Positions 1 through 5,908 of a DNA stretch of 5,908 bases are shown here, one piece after another. The notes below the pieces were generated by a model. It saw nothing but the letters and a program-made list of their open reading frames with translations, was not told where the DNA came from and did no database searches. The number at the start of each line of letters is the position of its first letter. Position 1 is the first letter of the stretch. The stretch covers positions 1 to 5,908 of the forward strand of contig CALJFL010000063.1 in the NCBI GenBank assembly GCA_938074135.1. Direction: 5' to 3'. The DNA comes from an uncultured Halieaceae bacterium (lineage in GTDB: Bacteria > Pseudomonadota > Gammaproteobacteria > Pseudomonadales > Halieaceae). A program made the position numbers and the translations under genes.

Positions 1-26
1 ATATAACATCGGTATCCTCGCGCAGC

Positions 27-31
27 GAAGG
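27..31 (+). promoter_or_regulatory. Shine-Dalgarno site of the mutase large-subunit gene
   Basis: GAAGG lies 9 bases before the ATG at 41 and supports that start. The reading frame is open upstream to the window edge with no in-frame stop, so a more distant start outside the window cannot be excluded. The 40 bases before the gene show no recognisable promoter or operator. Confidence 0.6.
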
Positions 32-40
32 CCTAACAAT

Positions 41-1672
41 ATGCAAGCGAAGAAAGCCCCGGACACCATCAAGACCAGCTCTGGTATCGAACTCAAACCC
101 TATTACACCGCCGCTGACGTACCGGAAGAACACCGGGAAAAGATGGATATCGCCCCCGGCCAGGCGCCCTACCAACGAGGCTTTCACCCGGCCGGTTATC
201 GCAGCAAGCCCTGGCGCATCTTTCAGCTCAGTGGCTTCGGTAAGCCCGAAGATGAGAACGAGCGCATCAAGTTCCTGCTGAACAACGGCGAGACCGGCTT
301 CATCATGGAACACGATCGCAACACCGGGGATCACTGCTACAACGTCGACCATCCGGAAGTCGTCGCGCGGCGTGAGGATGTGGGCCTGACCGGTGCTGTT
401 ATGCAAAGCGTGCGGGACATTGCGATCTGCCTCGACGGCCTACCCGTCGATACCAGCTTTGGTCACGCCGGTGGCGCTGTCGTGCAACACGCGCCCTTTG
501 CGCTTGCTGGCTACTGGACCGTGGCGAAGCAGCGCGGCTACGACCTGAGCAAGATTGCCGGTACCGGGCAGAGTGATTTCAATCTCACCTACCTTGGTTG
601 TGTGACCAAGCAACAAATTCCTACCGATGCCGGTCTCAGGTTCAATGCCGACATCATCGAGTTTTGTGGCCAGCACCTGCCGCGCTGGGTTCCGGTATCT
701 ATCGCCGGTTACAACGGCGCCGATACCGGCCTGAGCCCCGACCAGGAACTGGGCTCTCTTTTTGCCAACGCGGTCGAATACCTCGATGAAATCAAACGAC
801 GCGGTAATGTACCGCTTGAGCAGGCGGCAAAAGGTTGTGCCGGCGTCAGCTTCCGGGCATCGATTCACATCTTCGAGGAGGCGGCAAAATTGCGCGCTGC
901 CAGATTGATGTGGAGCGACCTCCTGCGCTCACGGTACGGCATCACCGATCCGAAAACGGCTAACCTGCGAATTCACTGCGTGACCGCCGGTTCCAAGATG
1001 ACCTATCAACAGCCGCTGAATAATATTGTGCGCGGCACCCTGATGGCGCTGACAGCGGCCATGGGCGGCGTACAGTCATTGGGGGTTTCAGGTTATGACG
1101 AAGCCCTGTCTATTCCCTCCGAGCACGCCCACCAGATGTCGGTGCGTATCCAGCAGATTCTGCAGGAGGAAACCAATTTCTGCGCGGTCACCGATCCACT
1201 GGGCGGCTCCTACTACGTGGAGACCCTGACGGCGCAACTGGCTGAAAAAGCCTGGGAGTTTTTCGAGGAAATCCAACAGCAAGGCGGCTACCTGGCCAGC
1301 CTGGACTCGGGCTGGCTGCATGCCAAGGCAGCAGAGAACCAGCATACCGAATTCATGGCCATGGAGTCGGGCGAGCAGCATGTGGTCGGGGTAACCTGCG
1401 CCGAGGGTGACGAGTCCCCCTTCGAGGTTGACGGCTTCATGGGTACTGACGACGCCTTCGATGTTGCGCTGGAACGACTTAACGACTTGCGTCGCACCCG
1501 TCACGAGGCGGGCGCTAATGCGGCACTGAAGAATCTCGACAAAGTCTGCCGATCGAAAGACAACATCATGCCTGCCATGCTCGATGCACTGGAGGCCGAG
1601 GTCACCCTGGGTGAAATCGGCGATGTCTACCGGGACGTGTTCGGTGACTGGAACACACCGATTCAAACCTGA
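41..1672 (+). CDS. Adenosylcobalamin-dependent acyl-CoA mutase, large (substrate-binding) subunit, atypical active site
   Basis: Large subunit of a split methylmalonyl/isobutyryl-CoA mutase-type enzyme, which performs radical 1,2 carbon-skeleton rearrangement of an acyl-CoA in the cytoplasm. Its 543 residues match large subunits that lack their own B12 domain. An N-terminal CoA-threading segment (about 10-55) precedes the TIM barrel. Recognisable family blocks are PW-IFQLSGFG (57-67), GQSD (176-179), the SIAGYN block (220-225), AAKLRAARLMW (281-291), RIHCVTAG (310-317), NNIVRGT (327-333), QSLGVSGYDEAL (345-356) and TDPLGGSYYVE (384-394). By hand alignment to Propionibacterium methylmalonyl-CoA mutase, Tyr89 becomes Leu63, Ala116 becomes Glu90, Arg207 becomes Cys187 and His244 becomes Asn225. 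The FDLPT loop is replaced by HDRNT with small insertions (91-112). It is therefore unlikely to use methylmalonyl-CoA, whose carboxylate needs that Arg and Tyr. Leu63 plus Glu90 resembles 2-hydroxyisobutyryl-CoA mutase (Ile90, Asp117). The family is certain; the substrate is unknown. Confidence 0.93.
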   Translation: MQAKKAPDTIKTSSGIELKPYYTAADVPEEHREKMDIAPGQAPYQRGFHPAGYRSKPWRIFQLSGFGKPEDENERIKFLLNNGETGFIMEHDRNTGDHCYNVDHPEVVARREDVGLTGAVMQSVRDIAICLDGLPVDTSFGHAGGAVVQHAPFALAGYWTVAKQRGYDLSKIAGTGQSDFNLTYLGCVTKQQIPTDAGLRFNADIIEFCGQHLPRWVPVSIAGYNGADTGLSPDQELGSLFANAVEYLDEIKRRGNVPLEQAAKGCAGVSFRASIHIFEEAAKLRAARLMWSDLLRSRYGITDPKTANLRIHCVTAGSKMTYQQPLNNIVRGTLMALTAAMGGVQSLGVSGYDEALSIPSEHAHQMSVRIQQILQEETNFCAVTDPLGGSYYVETLTAQLAEKAWEFFEEIQQQGGYLASLDSGWLHAKAAENQHTEFMAMESGEQHVVGVTCAEGDESPFEVDGFMGTDDAFDVALERLNDLRRTRHEAGANAALKNLDKVCRSKDNIMPAMLDALEAEVTLGEIGDVYRDVFGDWNTPIQT

Positions 1673-1676
1673 AGGG
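1671..1676 (+). promoter_or_regulatory. Shine-Dalgarno site of the B12-binding subunit gene
   Basis: GAAGGG overlaps the TGA stop (1670-1672) of the large-subunit gene and sits 7 bases before the ATG at 1684. A strong site touching the preceding stop favours coupled translation and equal amounts of the two mutase subunits. Confidence 0.65.
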
Positions 1677-1683
1677 TCTGCCT

Positions 1684-2079
1684 ATGGATAACAGCCAGAA
1701 ACGTATTCTGATGGCCAAGACCGGTCTCGATGGCCATTGGCGCGGGCCTACCATCGTGGCCCGGGCACTGCGCGATGCGGGCTTCGAGGTCATCATGATC
1801 GGCATGGCCAACACCGATGAAATCGTTCGCGCCGCGATCGACGAAGATGTTGATCTGGTGGGCTTGAATATCGGTGGCCACATCAACGTCGCCTTGCGCG
1901 CCGTCAACTCGGTACGCGAAGCAAGACCGGAGGTACCGGTCTTCGCCGGGGGCACCGTACCGCCGCACGCCAAAAAGCAGCTGGAATCACTGGGCGTGGA
2001 AGTCTTCCCTCCCGGCTCCCAACTACACGAAATCGTGGCCGCTGCCGAGCGGTTGACCCACGCGACCGATTCGGCCTGA
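1684..2079 (+). CDS. Adenosylcobalamin-dependent acyl-CoA mutase, small B12-binding subunit
   Basis: Small subunit that carries adenosylcobalamin and caps the large-subunit barrel. The 131 residues are one Rossmann-like B12-binding domain, close to the usual length for IcmB/HcmB-type subunits. The base-off/His-on signature DxHxxG is present as D16-G-H18-W-R-G21, with H18 the expected lower cobalt ligand and K12 four residues before D16 as in the family. The GG motif that contacts the corrin tail is at 89-90 within AGGTVPP, and PPGS at 109-112 matches the usual FGPGT turn. Two features are unusual. The residue after the ligand His is Trp19, where mutases normally have Asp. The SxL motif is absent: the ISSLAAGH region is shortened to LNIGGH (61-66). 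The gene starts 11 bases after the large subunit with its own ribosome site. The assignment is secure; the changes around the cofactor tail are consistent with a divergent clade or a different corrinoid. Confidence 0.93.
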   Translation: MDNSQKRILMAKTGLDGHWRGPTIVARALRDAGFEVIMIGMANTDEIVRAAIDEDVDLVGLNIGGHINVALRAVNSVREARPEVPVFAGGTVPPHAKKQLESLGVEVFPPGSQLHEIVAAAERLTHATDSA

Positions 2080-2103
2080 CGCCGACGACCGCGCCGCCTT
2101 CTC

Positions 2104-3054
2104 TTGGCAGATATTAGCGAGACGATCACAGCGGCGCTTGCCGGCAACCGGGGCGCCCTCGCCCGCCTGCTCAGCGTCGCCGAATGTTGCGATGACCGCC
2201 TGTCGGTGATTGAGAGCGCAATCGCAGGACTGGTCGGCAAGGCCTACGTCATTGGGATTACGGGGCCGCCGGGGGCCGGCAAGTCGACCCTGATCAACCA
2301 GTTACTGCCGCGGGCCCAGGGCGAGTTCGACCGCGCTGCAGTGTTGGCAGTAGACCCCAGTTCACCCTTCTCCAATGGCGCCTTGCTTGGTGATCGCGTT
2401 CGTATGCAGGGCGACAACCTGAAAGATTCGGTGTTCATCCGGTCCATGGCCTCGCGCGGCGAAGCCGGCGGTTTGGCGCGAGCAGCGGCGACCTGTGTGC
2501 GAATCTTCGATGCCTGCGGTTGGCCGGTCATTATTATAGAGACACTGGGCATCGGGCAGGTGGAACTGGAGATCATGAACCTCGCCGATACGGTGCTGGT
2601 GGTACTGAACCCTGGCTGGGGAGATACCTTCCAGGCCAACAAGGCAGGACTGACCGAGGCGGGTGATGTCTTCACGATCAACAAGGCGGACAAACCCGGC
2701 GTTGAGCAAACCCGCACCGACCTGCTGGATTCGCTGGCACTGATGGCGGCGCGGCCGCTGCCCGATGTTGCCGAGACGATTTCCACCGACGGAACCGGTG
2801 TCGATGAACTCTGGGGCAGCCTGATCGGGCACCGCGATCGACTACTGGACTGCGGCGAACTGGACGTACGGCGTGCCCGCAAGCGGCAGCACGTACTGCA
2901 TAAACTGATCGCCGATCAATTGGACCAACGACTTAACAACGCGCTGGCGACAGACGCCGGAGGTGAGCTTCTCGCCAGCCTGGCGGATGGCACGCAAGAT
3001 ATACAACAGGTTGTACAGCAGCTGCTGGCTCAGATCAGTCAAGACTCACCCTAA
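2104..3054 (+). CDS. meaB: MeaB/ArgK-family GTPase, chaperone of the B12 mutase
   Basis: G3E-type P-loop GTPase that gates cofactor loading into the partner mutase and protects or reactivates it. The 316 residues are normal for MeaB. About 50 helical residues precede the Walker A motif GPPGAGKST (54-62). DPSSPFS follows (84-90), then LGDRVRM (95-101), the switch region ETLGIGQVE (146-154), NPGWGD (169-174) and the guanine-specificity motif NKAD (193-196). A C-terminal helical arm (about 250-316) would form the dimer contact. All GTPase motifs appear intact. The start is the best available rather than a good one: TTG at 2104 has no clear Shine-Dalgarno site. No ATG or GTG occurs in frame between the preceding gene's TGA (2077-2079) and this TTG, and later starts would remove the N-terminal helices. 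The gene is in the same frame as the B12-subunit gene. Function is inferred from family and position. Confidence 0.92.
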   Translation: MADISETITAALAGNRGALARLLSVAECCDDRLSVIESAIAGLVGKAYVIGITGPPGAGKSTLINQLLPRAQGEFDRAAVLAVDPSSPFSNGALLGDRVRMQGDNLKDSVFIRSMASRGEAGGLARAAATCVRIFDACGWPVIIIETLGIGQVELEIMNLADTVLVVLNPGWGDTFQANKAGLTEAGDVFTINKADKPGVEQTRTDLLDSLALMAARPLPDVAETISTDGTGVDELWGSLIGHRDRLLDCGELDVRRARKRQHVLHKLIADQLDQRLNNALATDAGGELLASLADGTQDIQQVVQQLLAQISQDSP

Positions 3055-3068
3055 TACGTTTACCAAAG

Positions 3069-3089
3069 GGGCGGCTGATCACACCGCCC
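3069..3089 (+). other. GC-rich inverted repeat between meaB and the Fe-S gene
   Basis: A perfect 6-bp inverted repeat, GGGCGG (3069-3074) and CCGCCC (3084-3089), with a 9-base loop containing TGATCA. It lies in the only sizeable gap of the cluster (3055-3124, 70 bases). No T-run follows directly, so it is not a convincing intrinsic terminator. It could be a processing or attenuation hairpin, or chance in GC-rich DNA. Confidence 0.25.
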
Positions 3090-3124
3090 ACCTCGAATTG
3101 CCTTTCCGCGGCCAGTAGTGTGGA

Positions 3125-4144
3125 ATGGACGCAGGCACCCAGAACAGTGATCTCATCATGGCCAAGTCTGCACCCTACACACCACCGGCCGATATTCTCG
3201 CCAGTTTTCCGGAAAAATCAGGTAACGAGGTCAACGGGGTTGGCGAGACCGAGTACCGTCGTGCGTCGCGTTTTTTCTGGCACAAACCGGACTTGCAGTC
3301 CCACGGACAACTGCAAAAGACGGTTCTCAAATACGTGATGGGCGAACCCTCGGTGGGTGCCGAGTTTATCCACGCCGGCCCGGGCGATCCAAAACGTGGC
3401 CCGGTCGCAGTAGCTCAAGCGCAACACATCGTCGAAGGCAGCGAGCAACAGTGGAGTGAGAAGATAAAAGCCTTCGCCCTGGCCAACGAGGCCGATGTGG
3501 TTGGGGTTGCGAAAATGCGTGACGACTTCATTTTTGATGGCTATGAGGTTAACCACAAGTACATCATCATGATCGGTGTGGCTCATGATTATGAGCTTAT
3601 GAAAACGGCGCCATCGACTCCCGAGAATCCATCGTCAGCGGCGGAGGTGGCCAGGCAGTACAACCGTGGCTCGCGGGTGGTCAGCAAACTGCGAAATTAT
3701 ATCCTCGAGCAGGGCTATCCCGCCGCCGACTATCCCGGGCCCCTGGCCGATGCGATTGTAATGATCCCCGCCGCCATCGACTGCGGACTGGGTGAGTTGG
3801 GTAAACATGGCTCGCTCATCAACCGCAAGCTGGGCTCGTCTTTCAGGCTGGCCGCCGTTACTACCGATATGCCGCTAGCCGTCGATGCACCCGATACATT
3901 CGATGTGGACGATGTCTGCTACGGCTGCCGTGCCTGCGAAAATGCCTGCCCGCCCGATGCGATCTTTCAGGAAAAGAAGACCGTGCGCGGTGTCGAAAAA
4001 TGGTACGTGGATTTCGATAAGTGCATCCCGTTCTTTGCCGAGTCCTACGGCTGCGGCGCTTGTATCGCAGTTTGCCCGTGGAGTATCCCCGGTGTAGCCG
4101 ACAACCTGCTGCTAAAAATGGCGCGGCGCAAGTCCCGGGAGTAA
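3125..4144 (+). CDS. Cytoplasmic reductive dehalogenase-like / QueG-like protein with two 4Fe-4S clusters
   Basis: Iron-sulfur protein whose C-terminal half matches the core of cobalamin-dependent reductive dehalogenases (RdhA) and, more distantly, epoxyqueuosine reductase. The RdhA-type block GLGELGKHGSLI (221-232) is followed by FRLAAVTTDMPL (240-251). A first cluster motif Cx2Cx2Cx3CP uses C265, C268, C271 and C275. A second set is C300, C310, C313 and C317, ending CIAVCPW (313-319). Residues about 110-205 form the QueG/RdhA-like alpha/beta region presumed to help hold the corrinoid. No Tat motif plus hydrophobic stretch, no membrane segment and no RdhB-like anchor gene nearby were seen, so a soluble, non-respiratory role is likely. 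At 339 residues it is shorter than NpRdhA-type enzymes, which carry an extra reductase module. An in-frame TAG at 3116 makes ATG 3125 the earliest start; ATG 3158 (residue 12) is an alternative, and neither has a clear Shine-Dalgarno site. Corrinoid binding and dehalogenation are inferred, not shown. Confidence 0.87.
   Translation: MDAGTQNSDLIMAKSAPYTPPADILASFPEKSGNEVNGVGETEYRRASRFFWHKPDLQSHGQLQKTVLKYVMGEPSVGAEFIHAGPGDPKRGPVAVAQAQHIVEGSEQQWSEKIKAFALANEADVVGVAKMRDDFIFDGYEVNHKYIIMIGVAHDYELMKTAPSTPENPSSAAEVARQYNRGSRVVSKLRNYILEQGYPAADYPGPLADAIVMIPAAIDCGLGELGKHGSLINRKLGSSFRLAAVTTDMPLAVDAPDTFDVDDVCYGCRACENACPPDAIFQEKKTVRGVEKWYVDFDKCIPFFAESYGCGACIAVCPWSIPGVADNLLLKMARRKSRE
4137..4141 (+). promoter_or_regulatory. 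Shine-Dalgarno site of the DUF1624 membrane-protein gene
   Basis: GGGAG lies inside the last codons of the Fe-S gene and 6 bases before the ATG at 4148. The genes are only 3 bases apart, so ribosomes finishing the Fe-S protein are placed to start this one. This supports one transcript and coupled translation. Confidence 0.6.
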
Positions 4145-4147
4145 ACA

Positions 4148-5347
4148 ATGACCATAGCGCTCAGCAAGGATGCACGTTCCTATCGCCTTACCAGTATCGA
4201 CTTTCTACGCGGACTGGTCATCGTGGTTATGGCGATCGACCATGTCCGCGATTTCTTTTTCGCCGGTGCAACGCCAGACCCGTTGGGAGATGCCGACACG
4301 TCCCTGGGCTTATACCTCACTCGCTGGGTCACTCATTTTTGCGCGCCGGTGTTTATTTTCCTGGCCGGCACCTCCGCGGGACTCATGGCCGCGCGCAAGA
4401 CTCCACAAGACCTGGGCGTATTTTTGCTAAAGCGTGGGCTATGGCTGATTTTTGTGGAAGTCGCAGTGATATCCACGGCGTGGACCTTCGCACCGCTGGG
4501 AATGGCGCAAATCGGGGGTGCGACTATGGTCATACTGCAGGTCATTTGGGCAATCGGCATGTGCATGTTTTTGCTGGGTTGCGTCCAGTTCATGGGGCGT
4601 GCTTTTTGTCTGTATCTGGGTATCGCGATCGTGTTGCTGCATAACTTGCTTGACCCATTGGGTGTCGGGACTGACTTGCTAAAAGAGGGCCCACTGTGGG
4701 GACTGTTGCTGTTCCAGATGTCGATAAATTTAGGCGCGGTATTGGTCGTCGAGATATATCCAATTCTGGCTTGGTTCGGCGTGATGCTGGTTGGCTTTGG
4801 CTCTTCCTATATTTTTGAAAAGGAACCCGGTGAGCGCAATCGAATACTGATGAAAGTCGGCTTGGGCTTAATCGCTGGCTTTGCCCTGTTAAGAGGCCTT
4901 GGGATCTACGGGGACCCCAATGATTGGCAAGTTAGCGGCTCAGGAGCGATCGCAACAGCGCGAGACTTTTTCAATGTGACCAAGTATCCCCCCAGCCTAC
5001 TGTTCACTTTGATTACACTGGGACCGATGGCTGTATTGTGCGCACAGGCAGATCGACTGCAGGGTTGGCTCAAGGACACTCTGGTCATGTTTGGCAGAGT
5101 TCCCTTTGCTTTCTACATCGCCCACTTATACCTGATACATTTACTCAGCATCGGCTTGGGCATGATGCAGGGCTTCGAGGTTCATCAGTTTACGGTGCTT
5201 TACACCTTTTATCCTGCAGGCTATGGGGTTGGACTCATTGGTGTTTACCTGGTCTGGTTGCTGGTGCTGGTACTCTTATACCCGCTTTGCCGCTGGATGG
5301 CCGGGATCAAGCAGCGACGCAATGATTGGTGGCTGAGCTATCTCTGA
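4148..5347 (+). CDS. Multi-pass membrane protein, DUF1624 / heparan-alpha-glucosaminide acetyltransferase-like
   Basis: Integral inner-membrane protein of 399 residues. The N-terminal SIDFLRGLVIVVMAIDHVRD (16-35) is the hallmark of DUF1624 and related acyltransferase-like membrane proteins: Asp and Arg at the edge of the first helix, then a DH pair. Hydrophobic stretches near 20-38, 62-80, 94-113, 126-147, 151-168, 183-205, 207-222, 235-250, 283-298, 314-336 and 357-382 suggest about 10-11 membrane helices. Two further family blocks are NVTKYPPSLLF (276-286) and FGRVPFAFYIAHLYLIH (315-331). The tail is short and basic. Lysosomal HGSNAT, a eukaryotic relative, transfers acetyl groups from acetyl-CoA across a membrane, but bacterial DUF1624 substrates are generally unknown and none can be assigned here. 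The gene appears somewhat more T-rich than its neighbours, as expected for membrane proteins. Whether it serves the mutase module is unclear; only its tight spacing argues for it. Confidence 0.85.
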   Translation: MTIALSKDARSYRLTSIDFLRGLVIVVMAIDHVRDFFFAGATPDPLGDADTSLGLYLTRWVTHFCAPVFIFLAGTSAGLMAARKTPQDLGVFLLKRGLWLIFVEVAVISTAWTFAPLGMAQIGGATMVILQVIWAIGMCMFLLGCVQFMGRAFCLYLGIAIVLLHNLLDPLGVGTDLLKEGPLWGLLLFQMSINLGAVLVVEIYPILAWFGVMLVGFGSSYIFEKEPGERNRILMKVGLGLIAGFALLRGLGIYGDPNDWQVSGSGAIATARDFFNVTKYPPSLLFTLITLGPMAVLCAQADRLQGWLKDTLVMFGRVPFAFYIAHLYLIHLLSIGLGMMQGFEVHQFTVLYTFYPAGYGVGLIGVYLVWLLVLVLLYPLCRWMAGIKQRRNDWWLSYL

Positions 5348-5376
5348 CACTTAAAAATGTATCGGGCCATGACTAC

Positions 5377-5784
5377 ATGAGCGATTTCGCGATCCACCCG
5401 CAACTGCTTGGCGACTGCCACCTGCTCGGCAAAGTTAGCAGCGCGTATCTACTGTTGCACCGCAATGCCGCCCTGCCCTGGTTTATTCTGGTGCCCGACA
5501 CCGAATGCCAGGATCTACTGGACCTGCCGGATGATGTTCGTGAGCAACTGATGACCGACGCCAAGCGCGTCGCCGACTTTATAAAAACTCAATTTGGCCT
5601 GAGCAAAATCAATGTAGCGGCACTGGGCAACGTGGTTCCGCAGCTACACCTGCACGTTATCGGCCGTGATCCAGCTGATCCCTGCTGGCCGAATCCTGTC
5701 TGGGGTAATCTGACGACAGAGGAGGACTGGCCAGCCAATGCCGTAGACGACTTTAGCGCTACGCTGTGCCAGTGCCCTGACTAA
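5377..5784 (+). CDS. HIT-family nucleotide hydrolase/transferase
   Basis: Small soluble protein of the histidine-triad superfamily, which cleaves nucleoside phosphate derivatives such as dinucleoside polyphosphates or nucleotidyl conjugates. From ATG 5377 it has 135 residues, a typical length. It begins with FAIHPQLLGDCHLLG (4-18), continues with PWFILVP (34-40) and carries the active site QLHLHV at 89-94. In this QxHxH version of the triad, His91 is the expected nucleophile and His93 the supporting His. NVAALGNVVPQ (79-89) and CWPNPVWG (103-110) are, from memory, characteristic of a gamma/betaproteobacterial HIT subgroup. The frame is open upstream to a TTG at 5326 inside the membrane-protein gene. 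That start would add 17 residues unlike the family N-terminus, so ATG 5377 is preferred, although its ribosome site is weak. It follows the membrane-protein gene by 29 bases. The biological substrate is unknown and the role is probably general housekeeping. Confidence 0.87.
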   Translation: MSDFAIHPQLLGDCHLLGKVSSAYLLLHRNAALPWFILVPDTECQDLLDLPDDVREQLMTDAKRVADFIKTQFGLSKINVAALGNVVPQLHLHVIGRDPADPCWPNPVWGNLTTEEDWPANAVDDFSATLCQCPD

Positions 5785-5797
5785 AGTCGGATTGTGC

Positions 5798-5908
5798 CTA
5801 GCCGGCCTGGTCTGGCTCGGTCATTGACAGCACATAGCCATCCGAGGGATTAGCCCGACCTTCAAGTACCTTTAGGTAGATCTTCTGCAAGCAGTGCGAA
5901 CCGCCGCG
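5798..5908 (-). CDS. Possible 3' end of a convergent gene, product unknown (partial)
   Basis: On the - strand an open frame enters at the right edge and ends at a TAG whose complement is at 5798-5800. The visible 36 C-terminal residues contain SHCLQKIYLKVLEGR (4-18) followed by ANPSDGYVLSM (19-29), a mixed polar/aliphatic composition typical of a soluble protein. I do not recognise the family. It would converge on the HIT gene with only 13 bases between the stop codons. The case rests on plausible composition and on the need for something to fill the 124 bases after the HIT gene. The frame is too short to prove coding. Confidence 0.4.
   Translation of the reverse strand, partial: RGGSHCLQKIYLKVLEGRANPSDGYVLSMTEPDQAG

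Follow-up and report, generated by a model that had tools for sequence, protein, structure and literature searches.

A family of adenosylcobalamin-dependent carbon-skeleton mutases with a rebuilt pocket and a probably undescribed substrate

Few substrates are known for the adenosylcobalamin (AdoCbl)-dependent carbon-skeleton mutases (methylmalonyl-, isobutyryl-, ethylmalonyl-, pivalyl- and 2-hydroxyisobutyryl-CoA), and every addition to the list has revealed a way around a blocked carbon. Among the 2-hydroxyisobutyryl-CoA mutases, RcmAB of Kyrpidia tusciae is distant from HcmAB and prefers (R)-3-hydroxybutyryl-CoA, and B. massiliosenegalensis carries both mutase forms, according to the available text of PMC7176365; the enzymes of K. 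tusciae and B. massiliosenegalensis could both be purified, the form from the latter being left unspecified in the available text of PMC11599936. Here we analyse a 5,908-nucleotide stretch of DNA from an uncultured Halieaceae bacterium (GCA_938074135.1, contig CALJFL010000063.1, positions 1 to 5,908, forward strand; hereafter the window) and establish by computation the fold, subunits and clade of the mutase that it encodes, the invariance of its altered residues and the conserved catabolic neighbourhood of its relatives. This enzyme of marine bacteria probably acts on a compound outside the range of every described enzyme of its kind, and a literature search covering open-licence PMC articles found no paper on its family.

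Three adjacent genes on the + strand of the window encode a carbon-skeleton mutase that depends on AdoCbl and is built from two subunits, together with a MeaB chaperone of its own. The large subunit (positions 41..1672, 543 amino acids; hereafter the mutase) is a member of the AdoCbl-dependent acyl-CoA-mutase family and matches PF01642 over its whole length (profile positions 1-512 of 512; 464.7 bits against a cut-off of 22.1). It is followed by a cobalamin-binding subunit of 131 amino acids (1684..2079; PF02310, 76.5 bits; TIGR00640, 95.9 bits, cut-off 57.45), which as a separate protein carries the DxHxxG motif of PF01642-type mutases in the form DGHWRG, and by a MeaB-type G-protein chaperone of 316 amino acids with a TTG start (2104..3054; PF03308, 231.7 bits; TIGR00750, 257.1 bits, cut-off 240.75).

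Leu63, Glu90 and the rebuilt barrel

Relatives were collected by a protein search (1849 matches among 8000 candidates; of these, the 120 best listed were used) and by a scan of genome contigs that yielded 45 loci, 44 of which were used as the family, the 45th (L045) being a distant relative at 34% identity. The family loci come from two proteobacterial classes and range from 62% to 91% in identity to the window. The family alignment comprises 161 rows (118 proteins and 43 loci, with three partial rows left out), many of them near-copies that do not amount to 161 independent tests, and a second alignment holds 119 of the 120 listed proteins. For comparison we used 120 Hcm rows, which are the nearest matches of HcmA and 88-97% identical to it, and 120 rows of the Rcm clade described below. 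Substitutions are numbered after the P. shermanii mutase.

The initial annotation of this DNA had singled out Leu63 and Glu90 as a swap in the substrate pocket on the pattern of 2-hydroxyisobutyryl-CoA mutase. Their codons (227..229 and 308..310, + strand) lie exactly where it had placed them in the 543-residue frame at 41-1672, and the gap-free alignment that it had described from Pro-Trp (57-58) to Asp92, with the equivalences to methylmalonyl-CoA mutase (MCM) and HcmA, was reproduced with phmmer against PDB chains: P57-D92 aligns without gaps to HcmA (4r3u) and to the human, M. tuberculosis and P. shermanii (Y89F) mutases, and a separate alignment has no pairwise gap from P57 to T95. Leu63 corresponds to MCM Tyr89 and HcmA Ile90, and Glu90 to MCM Ala116 and HcmA Asp117, the last of which we take to contact the substrate hydroxyl (the Hcm residue numbers and roles are assumed throughout). 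An AlphaFold2 model has Leu63 on the first strand of the barrel and Glu90 where strand 2 ends or just past it; alignment and model alike predict that both lie, as the annotation supposed, at the acyl end of the barrel.

Both residues are conserved, Leu63 in 161/161 and Glu90 in 159/161 family rows (P0098 and P0100 have Lys), with 118 Leu and one Met at the first site and 117 Glu and two Lys at the second in the alignment of 119 proteins. The Hcm rows have Ile90 and Asp117 (Hcm numbering) in 120/120 cases, where the window has Leu and Glu. Leucine is also the commoner residue at the Leu63 site in the Rcm clade (82/120), a point against a swap of the Hcm type; at the Glu90 site that clade has 67 Val and 53 Leu, none of its rows being acidic, and the window's glutamate stands in place of the Val117 (Hcm numbering) expected of RcmA. 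Leu63 and Glu90 alone are insufficient to name the substrate. The two exceptions, at ~70% identity, carry Glu90Lys, Ile88Arg and Phe61Leu together, a charge-reversed pocket that perhaps serves an acidic substrate.

The pocket differs at more than these two sites: about a dozen further positions in the pocket and on the cobalamin face, missed in the initial annotation, are altered as well. The gap-free changes are Met78Gly, Arg82Lys, Thr85Arg, Arg87Phe, Tyr89Leu, Ser114Ile/Leu, Ala116Glu, Phe117His, Leu119Arg and Pro120Asn in the first stretch and Asn236Val, His244Asn, Gln330Val and Asn366Ser further on; the window mutase reads RIFQL in place of TIRQY and EHDRNT in place of AFDLPT. Arg207Val, treated below, is a further change. 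Thr195, Gln197, Tyr243 and Glu370 are retained in the family, and Met78 is still present in four deep rows (L037, L038, L039 and L041). On strand 1 the arginine has shifted by two places (Arg59, Ile60 and Phe61, codons 215..223, + strand, at MCM Thr85, Ile86 and Arg87): Arg59 is found in 161/161 and Phe61 in 159/161 family rows (two have Leu), and Thr85 and Arg87 in all 120 Hcm and all 120 Rcm-clade rows. His91, Asp92, Arg93 and Asn94 (311..322, + strand; MCM Phe117, Asp118, Leu119 and Pro120), each present in 161/161 rows, presumably face the cobalamin, as we take this stretch to lie beside the corrin.

Val188 (602..604, + strand) occupies the site of MCM Arg207 (Gln in Hcm, Ser in the Rcm clade) in most alignments and without gaps against the K. 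tusciae protein P0296, one alignment placing Cys187 there; equivalences at positions 162-169 and 283 also vary between alignments. Asn225 (713..715, + strand) replaces His244 in 161/161 family rows, a site that is Asn in 120/120 Rcm-clade and His in 120/120 Hcm rows. Arg87, Ser114, Asn236, His244, Gln330 and Asn366 are invariant in the 120 Hcm rows; in the Rcm clade Arg87, Asn236 and Gln330 are invariant and position 366 is Asp in 119 rows. Contacts of these residues with CoA or the adenosyl group are assumed here from MCM structures. In the available texts, human Arg228, the equivalent of Arg207, salt-bridges a substrate analogue (PMC10356863), and Tyr89 and His244 are given as active-site residues of 1REQ (PMC3205055).

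Position within the mutase family

In a first tree of 56 rows the window family stood alone on a long branch (3.16). A search of 299 genomes from the phylum of a Desulfovirgula genome gave nearer outsiders, the best at 39-40% identity, and a second tree united the window family with six Bacillota-type rows and L114 at 100/100, a clade of Hcm with the window being rejected (p-AU 0.0039; lnL 41.5 lower). L114 groups weakly with the window family in two trees (85/48; 86/74), and the window family with the six Bacillota-type rows alone forms no clade in the second tree, though such a clade is not rejected either (p 0.145). Searching with one Bacillota-type row led to P0296 (K. tusciae) and P0270 (Robertmurraya massiliosenegalensis), which belong to the same group. 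P0296 has Ile89 and Val116, the residues that we take RcmA to have at these two sites, and is most likely RcmA itself.

When 57 pocket columns and three long rows were removed, the window and Rcm rows remained together at 100/99, Hcm with the window was again rejected (p 0.0089), and the Rcm-like rows formed a clade of their own at 99/95. In this tree the window family is sister to, not within, this clade containing the K. tusciae and R. massiliosenegalensis proteins, and its nearest characterised kin is most likely RcmA, the other 2-hydroxyisobutyryl-CoA mutase. Orthology to Hcm is rejected, and the initial proposal of a two-residue swap on the Hcm pattern is not supported; since the family is sister to the Rcm-type clade, the likeness of Glu90 to HcmA Asp117 is, to judge from the sequences, one of convergence. 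The phylogeny that the annotation had called for puts the window protein inside no characterised clade that could be placed (the tree held no labelled Pcm or IcmA, and Ecm and IcmF only as the unlabelled rows L063/L064 and L065 that we took for them).

The cobalamin subunit provides a separate mark. DGHWRG is found in 43 of the 44 family loci, the remaining one (L040) breaking off within the mutase gene; on the Rcm side, loci L123-L127 have DxHWRG, and in L128 the sequence KPGLDGHWRG stands directly behind the L114 mutase, with a DGHDRG subunit beside a second, different mutase. DGHDRG is the form in the Hcm-like loci L075 and L081 and in the MCM loci L046 and L050, other readings occur in L045, L054, L063, L071, L074 and L108, and a pattern search for the motif in L094 and L109 returned no match. 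Independently of the mutase sequence, the shared DxHWRG groups L114 and the Rcm clade with the window family.

Further divergent mutases surfaced during these searches. Haliea alexandrii encodes one (L054 / L108:9102-10853, - strand) with its own cobalamin subunit (DTHTVG) and MeaB; it combines Glu at 116 with Val at 207, keeps few of the other key residues and represents another divergent lineage. The genome of L038 holds a very divergent PF01642 protein (L066 / L109:6289-7875, - strand) whose neighbour is a subunit of cobalamin type; genes for a reductase, an enoyl-CoA hydratase and a ligase lie within the 17 kb around it. The Desulfovirgula metagenome-assembled genome (MAG) that carries L045 (G888, 3.1 Mb) has eleven PF01642 matches, some of them fragments, and is an unusually mutase-rich anaerobe.

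Gene neighbourhood and distribution

The window begins 40 bp before the mutase gene, its own upstream genes lying outside it, and the neighbourhood was read from the 44 family loci (matches had to reach E 1e-15 and span 40% or more of the query; the lowest, at 25-30% identity, are possibly paralogues). An iron-type alcohol dehydrogenase (Fe-ADH) of divergent sequence lies upstream in 38/44 loci, with a median of 141 bp between matches. Among the 40 loci with more than 4 kb of upstream sequence, 38 have a CoA ligase (nearest NCBIfam model PRK06155, 495.7 bits, below the cut-off of 722), 37 a TetR regulator and 30 a TonB receptor; among the 30 with more than 8 kb, a P450 occurs in 19 and an LLM oxygenase (nearest SfnG and RutA) in 17. 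The cobalamin subunit is downstream in 43/43 loci with enough sequence and MeaB is found in 34/39, including L039 and L041, where it is upstream and in the opposite orientation. Locus L002, 91% identical to the window, has the order Fe-ADH, TetR, ligase, TonB receptor and P450, the best solved-chain matches of the P450 being CYP125-type and vitamin D hydroxylases. In the alphaproteobacterial loci L038, L039 and L041 the cobalamin subunit is followed, ~470 bp after the mutase, by an aldehyde dehydrogenase, and Fe-ADH is absent; right before their mutase these loci also encode a protein of 230-246 amino acids (cluster 31; L038:9252-9974, + strand), the L038 copy of which has no Pfam or NCBIfam match. 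The Rcm-clade locus L123 reads CoA-transferase pair, MeaB, mutase, cobalamin subunit, FabG-like short-chain dehydrogenase/reductase and thiolase. The neighbourhood of the window family looks like a regulated uptake-and-oxidation, or catabolic, cluster and not like central propionate metabolism.

At E 1e-150 or better, a family member is present in 29/140 genomes of the taxonomic family of Pseudohaliea rubra; a sample of 398 genomes of its phylum contained none at family level beyond the seed genome. The class sampled around L038 gave 3/385 (the seed and the two known contigs L039 and L041), the Bacillota-type phylum of L045 gave 0/299 (best E 4e-110, the nearer outsiders noted above), and the best identity among 426 matching plasmid records was 36.0%. 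One family locus at 77% identity (L024) comes from a MAG titled Klebsiella pneumoniae and has a Halieaceae-type cluster; the bin name is probably wrong. A separate MCM with canonical residues is encoded elsewhere in 8/8 carriers first searched. Of five further carriers, G889, G891 and G893 have a high-scoring MCM-sized frame of 714-739 amino acids, G890 has only the family member and G892 has none of MCM size, so coexistence is not shown for all carriers.

Downstream of MeaB the window encodes a cytosolic-looking Fe-S protein weakly like reductive dehalogenases and QueG (3125..4144; TIGR02486, 95.3 bits, below the cut-off of 160.35), an HGSNAT-like membrane protein (4148..5347) and a HIT-domain protein (about 5377..5784). 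They were rejected as partners of the mutase and are not counted in the system because none has a match in any of the 44 related loci (E 1e-15).

Candidate substrates and comparison with known enzymes

Which substrate fits these features can be stated in graded terms. RcmA as the likely nearest kin, an enzyme that converts 2-hydroxyisobutyryl-CoA to 3-hydroxybutyryl-CoA, favours a hydroxylated branched substrate, and the loss of Arg207 speaks against a second carboxylate; taken with the acid at the Hcm hydroxyl site, they make conversion of a 2-hydroxy-2-alkylacyl-CoA to a 3-hydroxyacyl-CoA the most likely reaction, and we tentatively favour it at somewhat under an even chance. The gene order of the Rcm-clade locus L123 matches such a reaction. 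An acid would be taken up through the TonB receptor, oxidised by the P450 or LLM oxygenase and the alcohol (or aldehyde) dehydrogenase, and activated by the CoA ligase. AdoCbl would then abstract a hydrogen from an alkyl substituent at the branch carbon, the CO-S-CoA group would migrate to the alkyl carbon, and the branched thioester would leave as a linear 3-hydroxyacyl-CoA fit for beta-oxidation. Leu63 may make room for the alkyl branch and Glu90 may bind the hydroxyl, if not some other polar group. The altered residues of the barrel could accommodate an acyl group larger than 2-hydroxyisobutyryl; rebuilt barrel and P450, LLM and TonB neighbours together suggest a larger acid. The initial annotation, which pointed to an undescribed substrate that is hydroxylated or branched, was probably right in this, given the family's place outside the characterised clades that could be placed and its likely kinship with RcmA; what did not survive is Hcm as the model and the restriction to two changes.

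Several observations weigh against this reading. Arg87, Ser114 and Asn236, presumed CoA contacts that Hcm keeps, are lost in the window, which leaves even CoA binding a presumption. Rcm shows Val or Leu at the Glu90 site instead of an acid, and the glutamate may therefore make no contact with a hydroxyl. The P450 gene and the LLM gene are each lacking in at least a third of the loci, Fe-ADH is absent from six of 44 (L032, L033, L037, L038, L039 and L041), and the CoA ligase was not found in L032 and L037 either. The stem of the family is long (1.7-3.2 changes per column), which calls for caution on placement, and P0296 bears no database label that names it RcmA.

Framed more broadly, the family might form a new specificity class, with acyl site, pantetheine tunnel and cobalamin face rebuilt for a substrate outside the known short acyl-CoAs, such as a large hydroxylated marine terpenoid or sterol acid or a non-CoA substrate, within the uptake-and-oxidation cluster; we consider this doubtful, if well worth keeping in view. 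Among the narrower alternatives, a bulky branched acyl-CoA without a hydroxyl (pivalyl-like, or a terpenoid or steroid acid with a blocked carbon) is unlikely but fares best. Leu63, Val188 and Ile88 would line an oily pocket, Val217 being hydrophobic as well, and Glu90 would be salt-bridged to the new Arg59, Arg93 or His91, off the substrate, as would suit the Leu/Ile and Val/Leu of the Rcm-clade kin at the two sites and the CYP125-type and vitamin D hydroxylase matches of the L002 P450; IcmF, moreover, handles pivalyl-CoA (available text of PMC9974510). A buried acid unvarying in 159/161 rows would, however, be costly if unused, and both exceptions changed three neighbouring sites jointly.

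It is distinctly improbable that the substrate is held not as an acyl-CoA but as a free acid or on another carrier, in a rebuilt tunnel, with the CoA ligase acting on the product. Thr85Arg, Arg87Phe, Ser114Ile/Leu and Asn236Val, at sites that we take to contact CoA in MCM and that are kept, or nearly so, in Hcm and Rcm rows, would suit such an arrangement. Against it stand the near-universal ligase, the base retained in Arg82Lys, the return of the lost arginine of position 87 two residues earlier and, to our knowledge, the use of CoA esters by the whole characterised PF01642 family. That the enzyme is simply an orthologue of Hcm or MCM, with 2-hydroxyisobutyryl- or methylmalonyl-CoA as its substrate, is very improbable: identity to either enzyme and the hydroxyl-binding logic at two sites would allow it, but the Hcm clade is rejected, Tyr89, Arg207, His244 and Arg87 are replaced, and these residues, with the canonical MCM encoded separately in the eight carriers, led us to reject the window protein as an MCM. 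A non-catalytic paralogue, for which the many altered pocket residues and degenerate-looking relatives such as L054 and L068 might speak, is scarcely credible, as the changes are invariant rather than decayed and the cobalamin subunit, its DGHWRG motif and MeaB accompany the mutase at the frequencies given above.

The near-invariant rebuilt pocket and the conserved transporter, oxygenase and ligase genes make a B12-dependent step in the breakdown of a branched marine compound directly testable. The family also lends itself to mutase engineering as a natural scaffold and, should P0296 be RcmA, Asn at the His244 site is compatible with an active mutase lineage.

Compared with known systems, the window enzyme shares with MCM the fold, Thr195, Gln197, Tyr243, Glu370, the type of cobalamin domain and MeaB; it differs in Tyr89, Ala116, Arg207, His244 and Arg87, all replaced, at about 28-30% identity, and has Leu, Val and Asn where MCM is marked by Tyr89, Arg207 and His244. 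IcmF is a single chain of cobalamin, G-protein and mutase domains, whereas the window uses three genes and scores 121.6 bits against an equivalog cut-off of 1500. HcmAB of Aquincola tertiaricarbonis ((S)-specific; 4r3u) is 32-33% identical, and the window lies outside its clade, with Leu/Glu for Ile/Asp and with His244, Arg87, Asn236, Gln330, Asn366 and Gln207 replaced; the GntR and hcl-hcmAB-meaH layout given in the available text of PMC7176365 contrasts with TetR and Fe-ADH in the window family. RcmAB of K. tusciae (P0296 taken as RcmA, with P0270 of R. massiliosenegalensis beside it) unites with the window family (100/100; 100/99 without pocket columns), which then stands beside the Rcm-like rows as a sister; it likewise has Asn in place of His244, neither Arg nor Gln at 207, DxHWRG and separate subunits with MeaB. 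It is, however, only 37% identical, has Val/Leu for Glu90, retains Thr85, Arg87, Asn236 and Gln330, all altered in the window family, and has different gene neighbours. Finally, the B12 mutase of the acetone pathway in the sulfate reducer Desulfosarcina cetonica, which lay outside our tree, is also induced on butanone and two pentanones (available text of PMC7888143), and larger 2-hydroxy-2-alkylacyl-CoAs are therefore plausible substrates of such enzymes.
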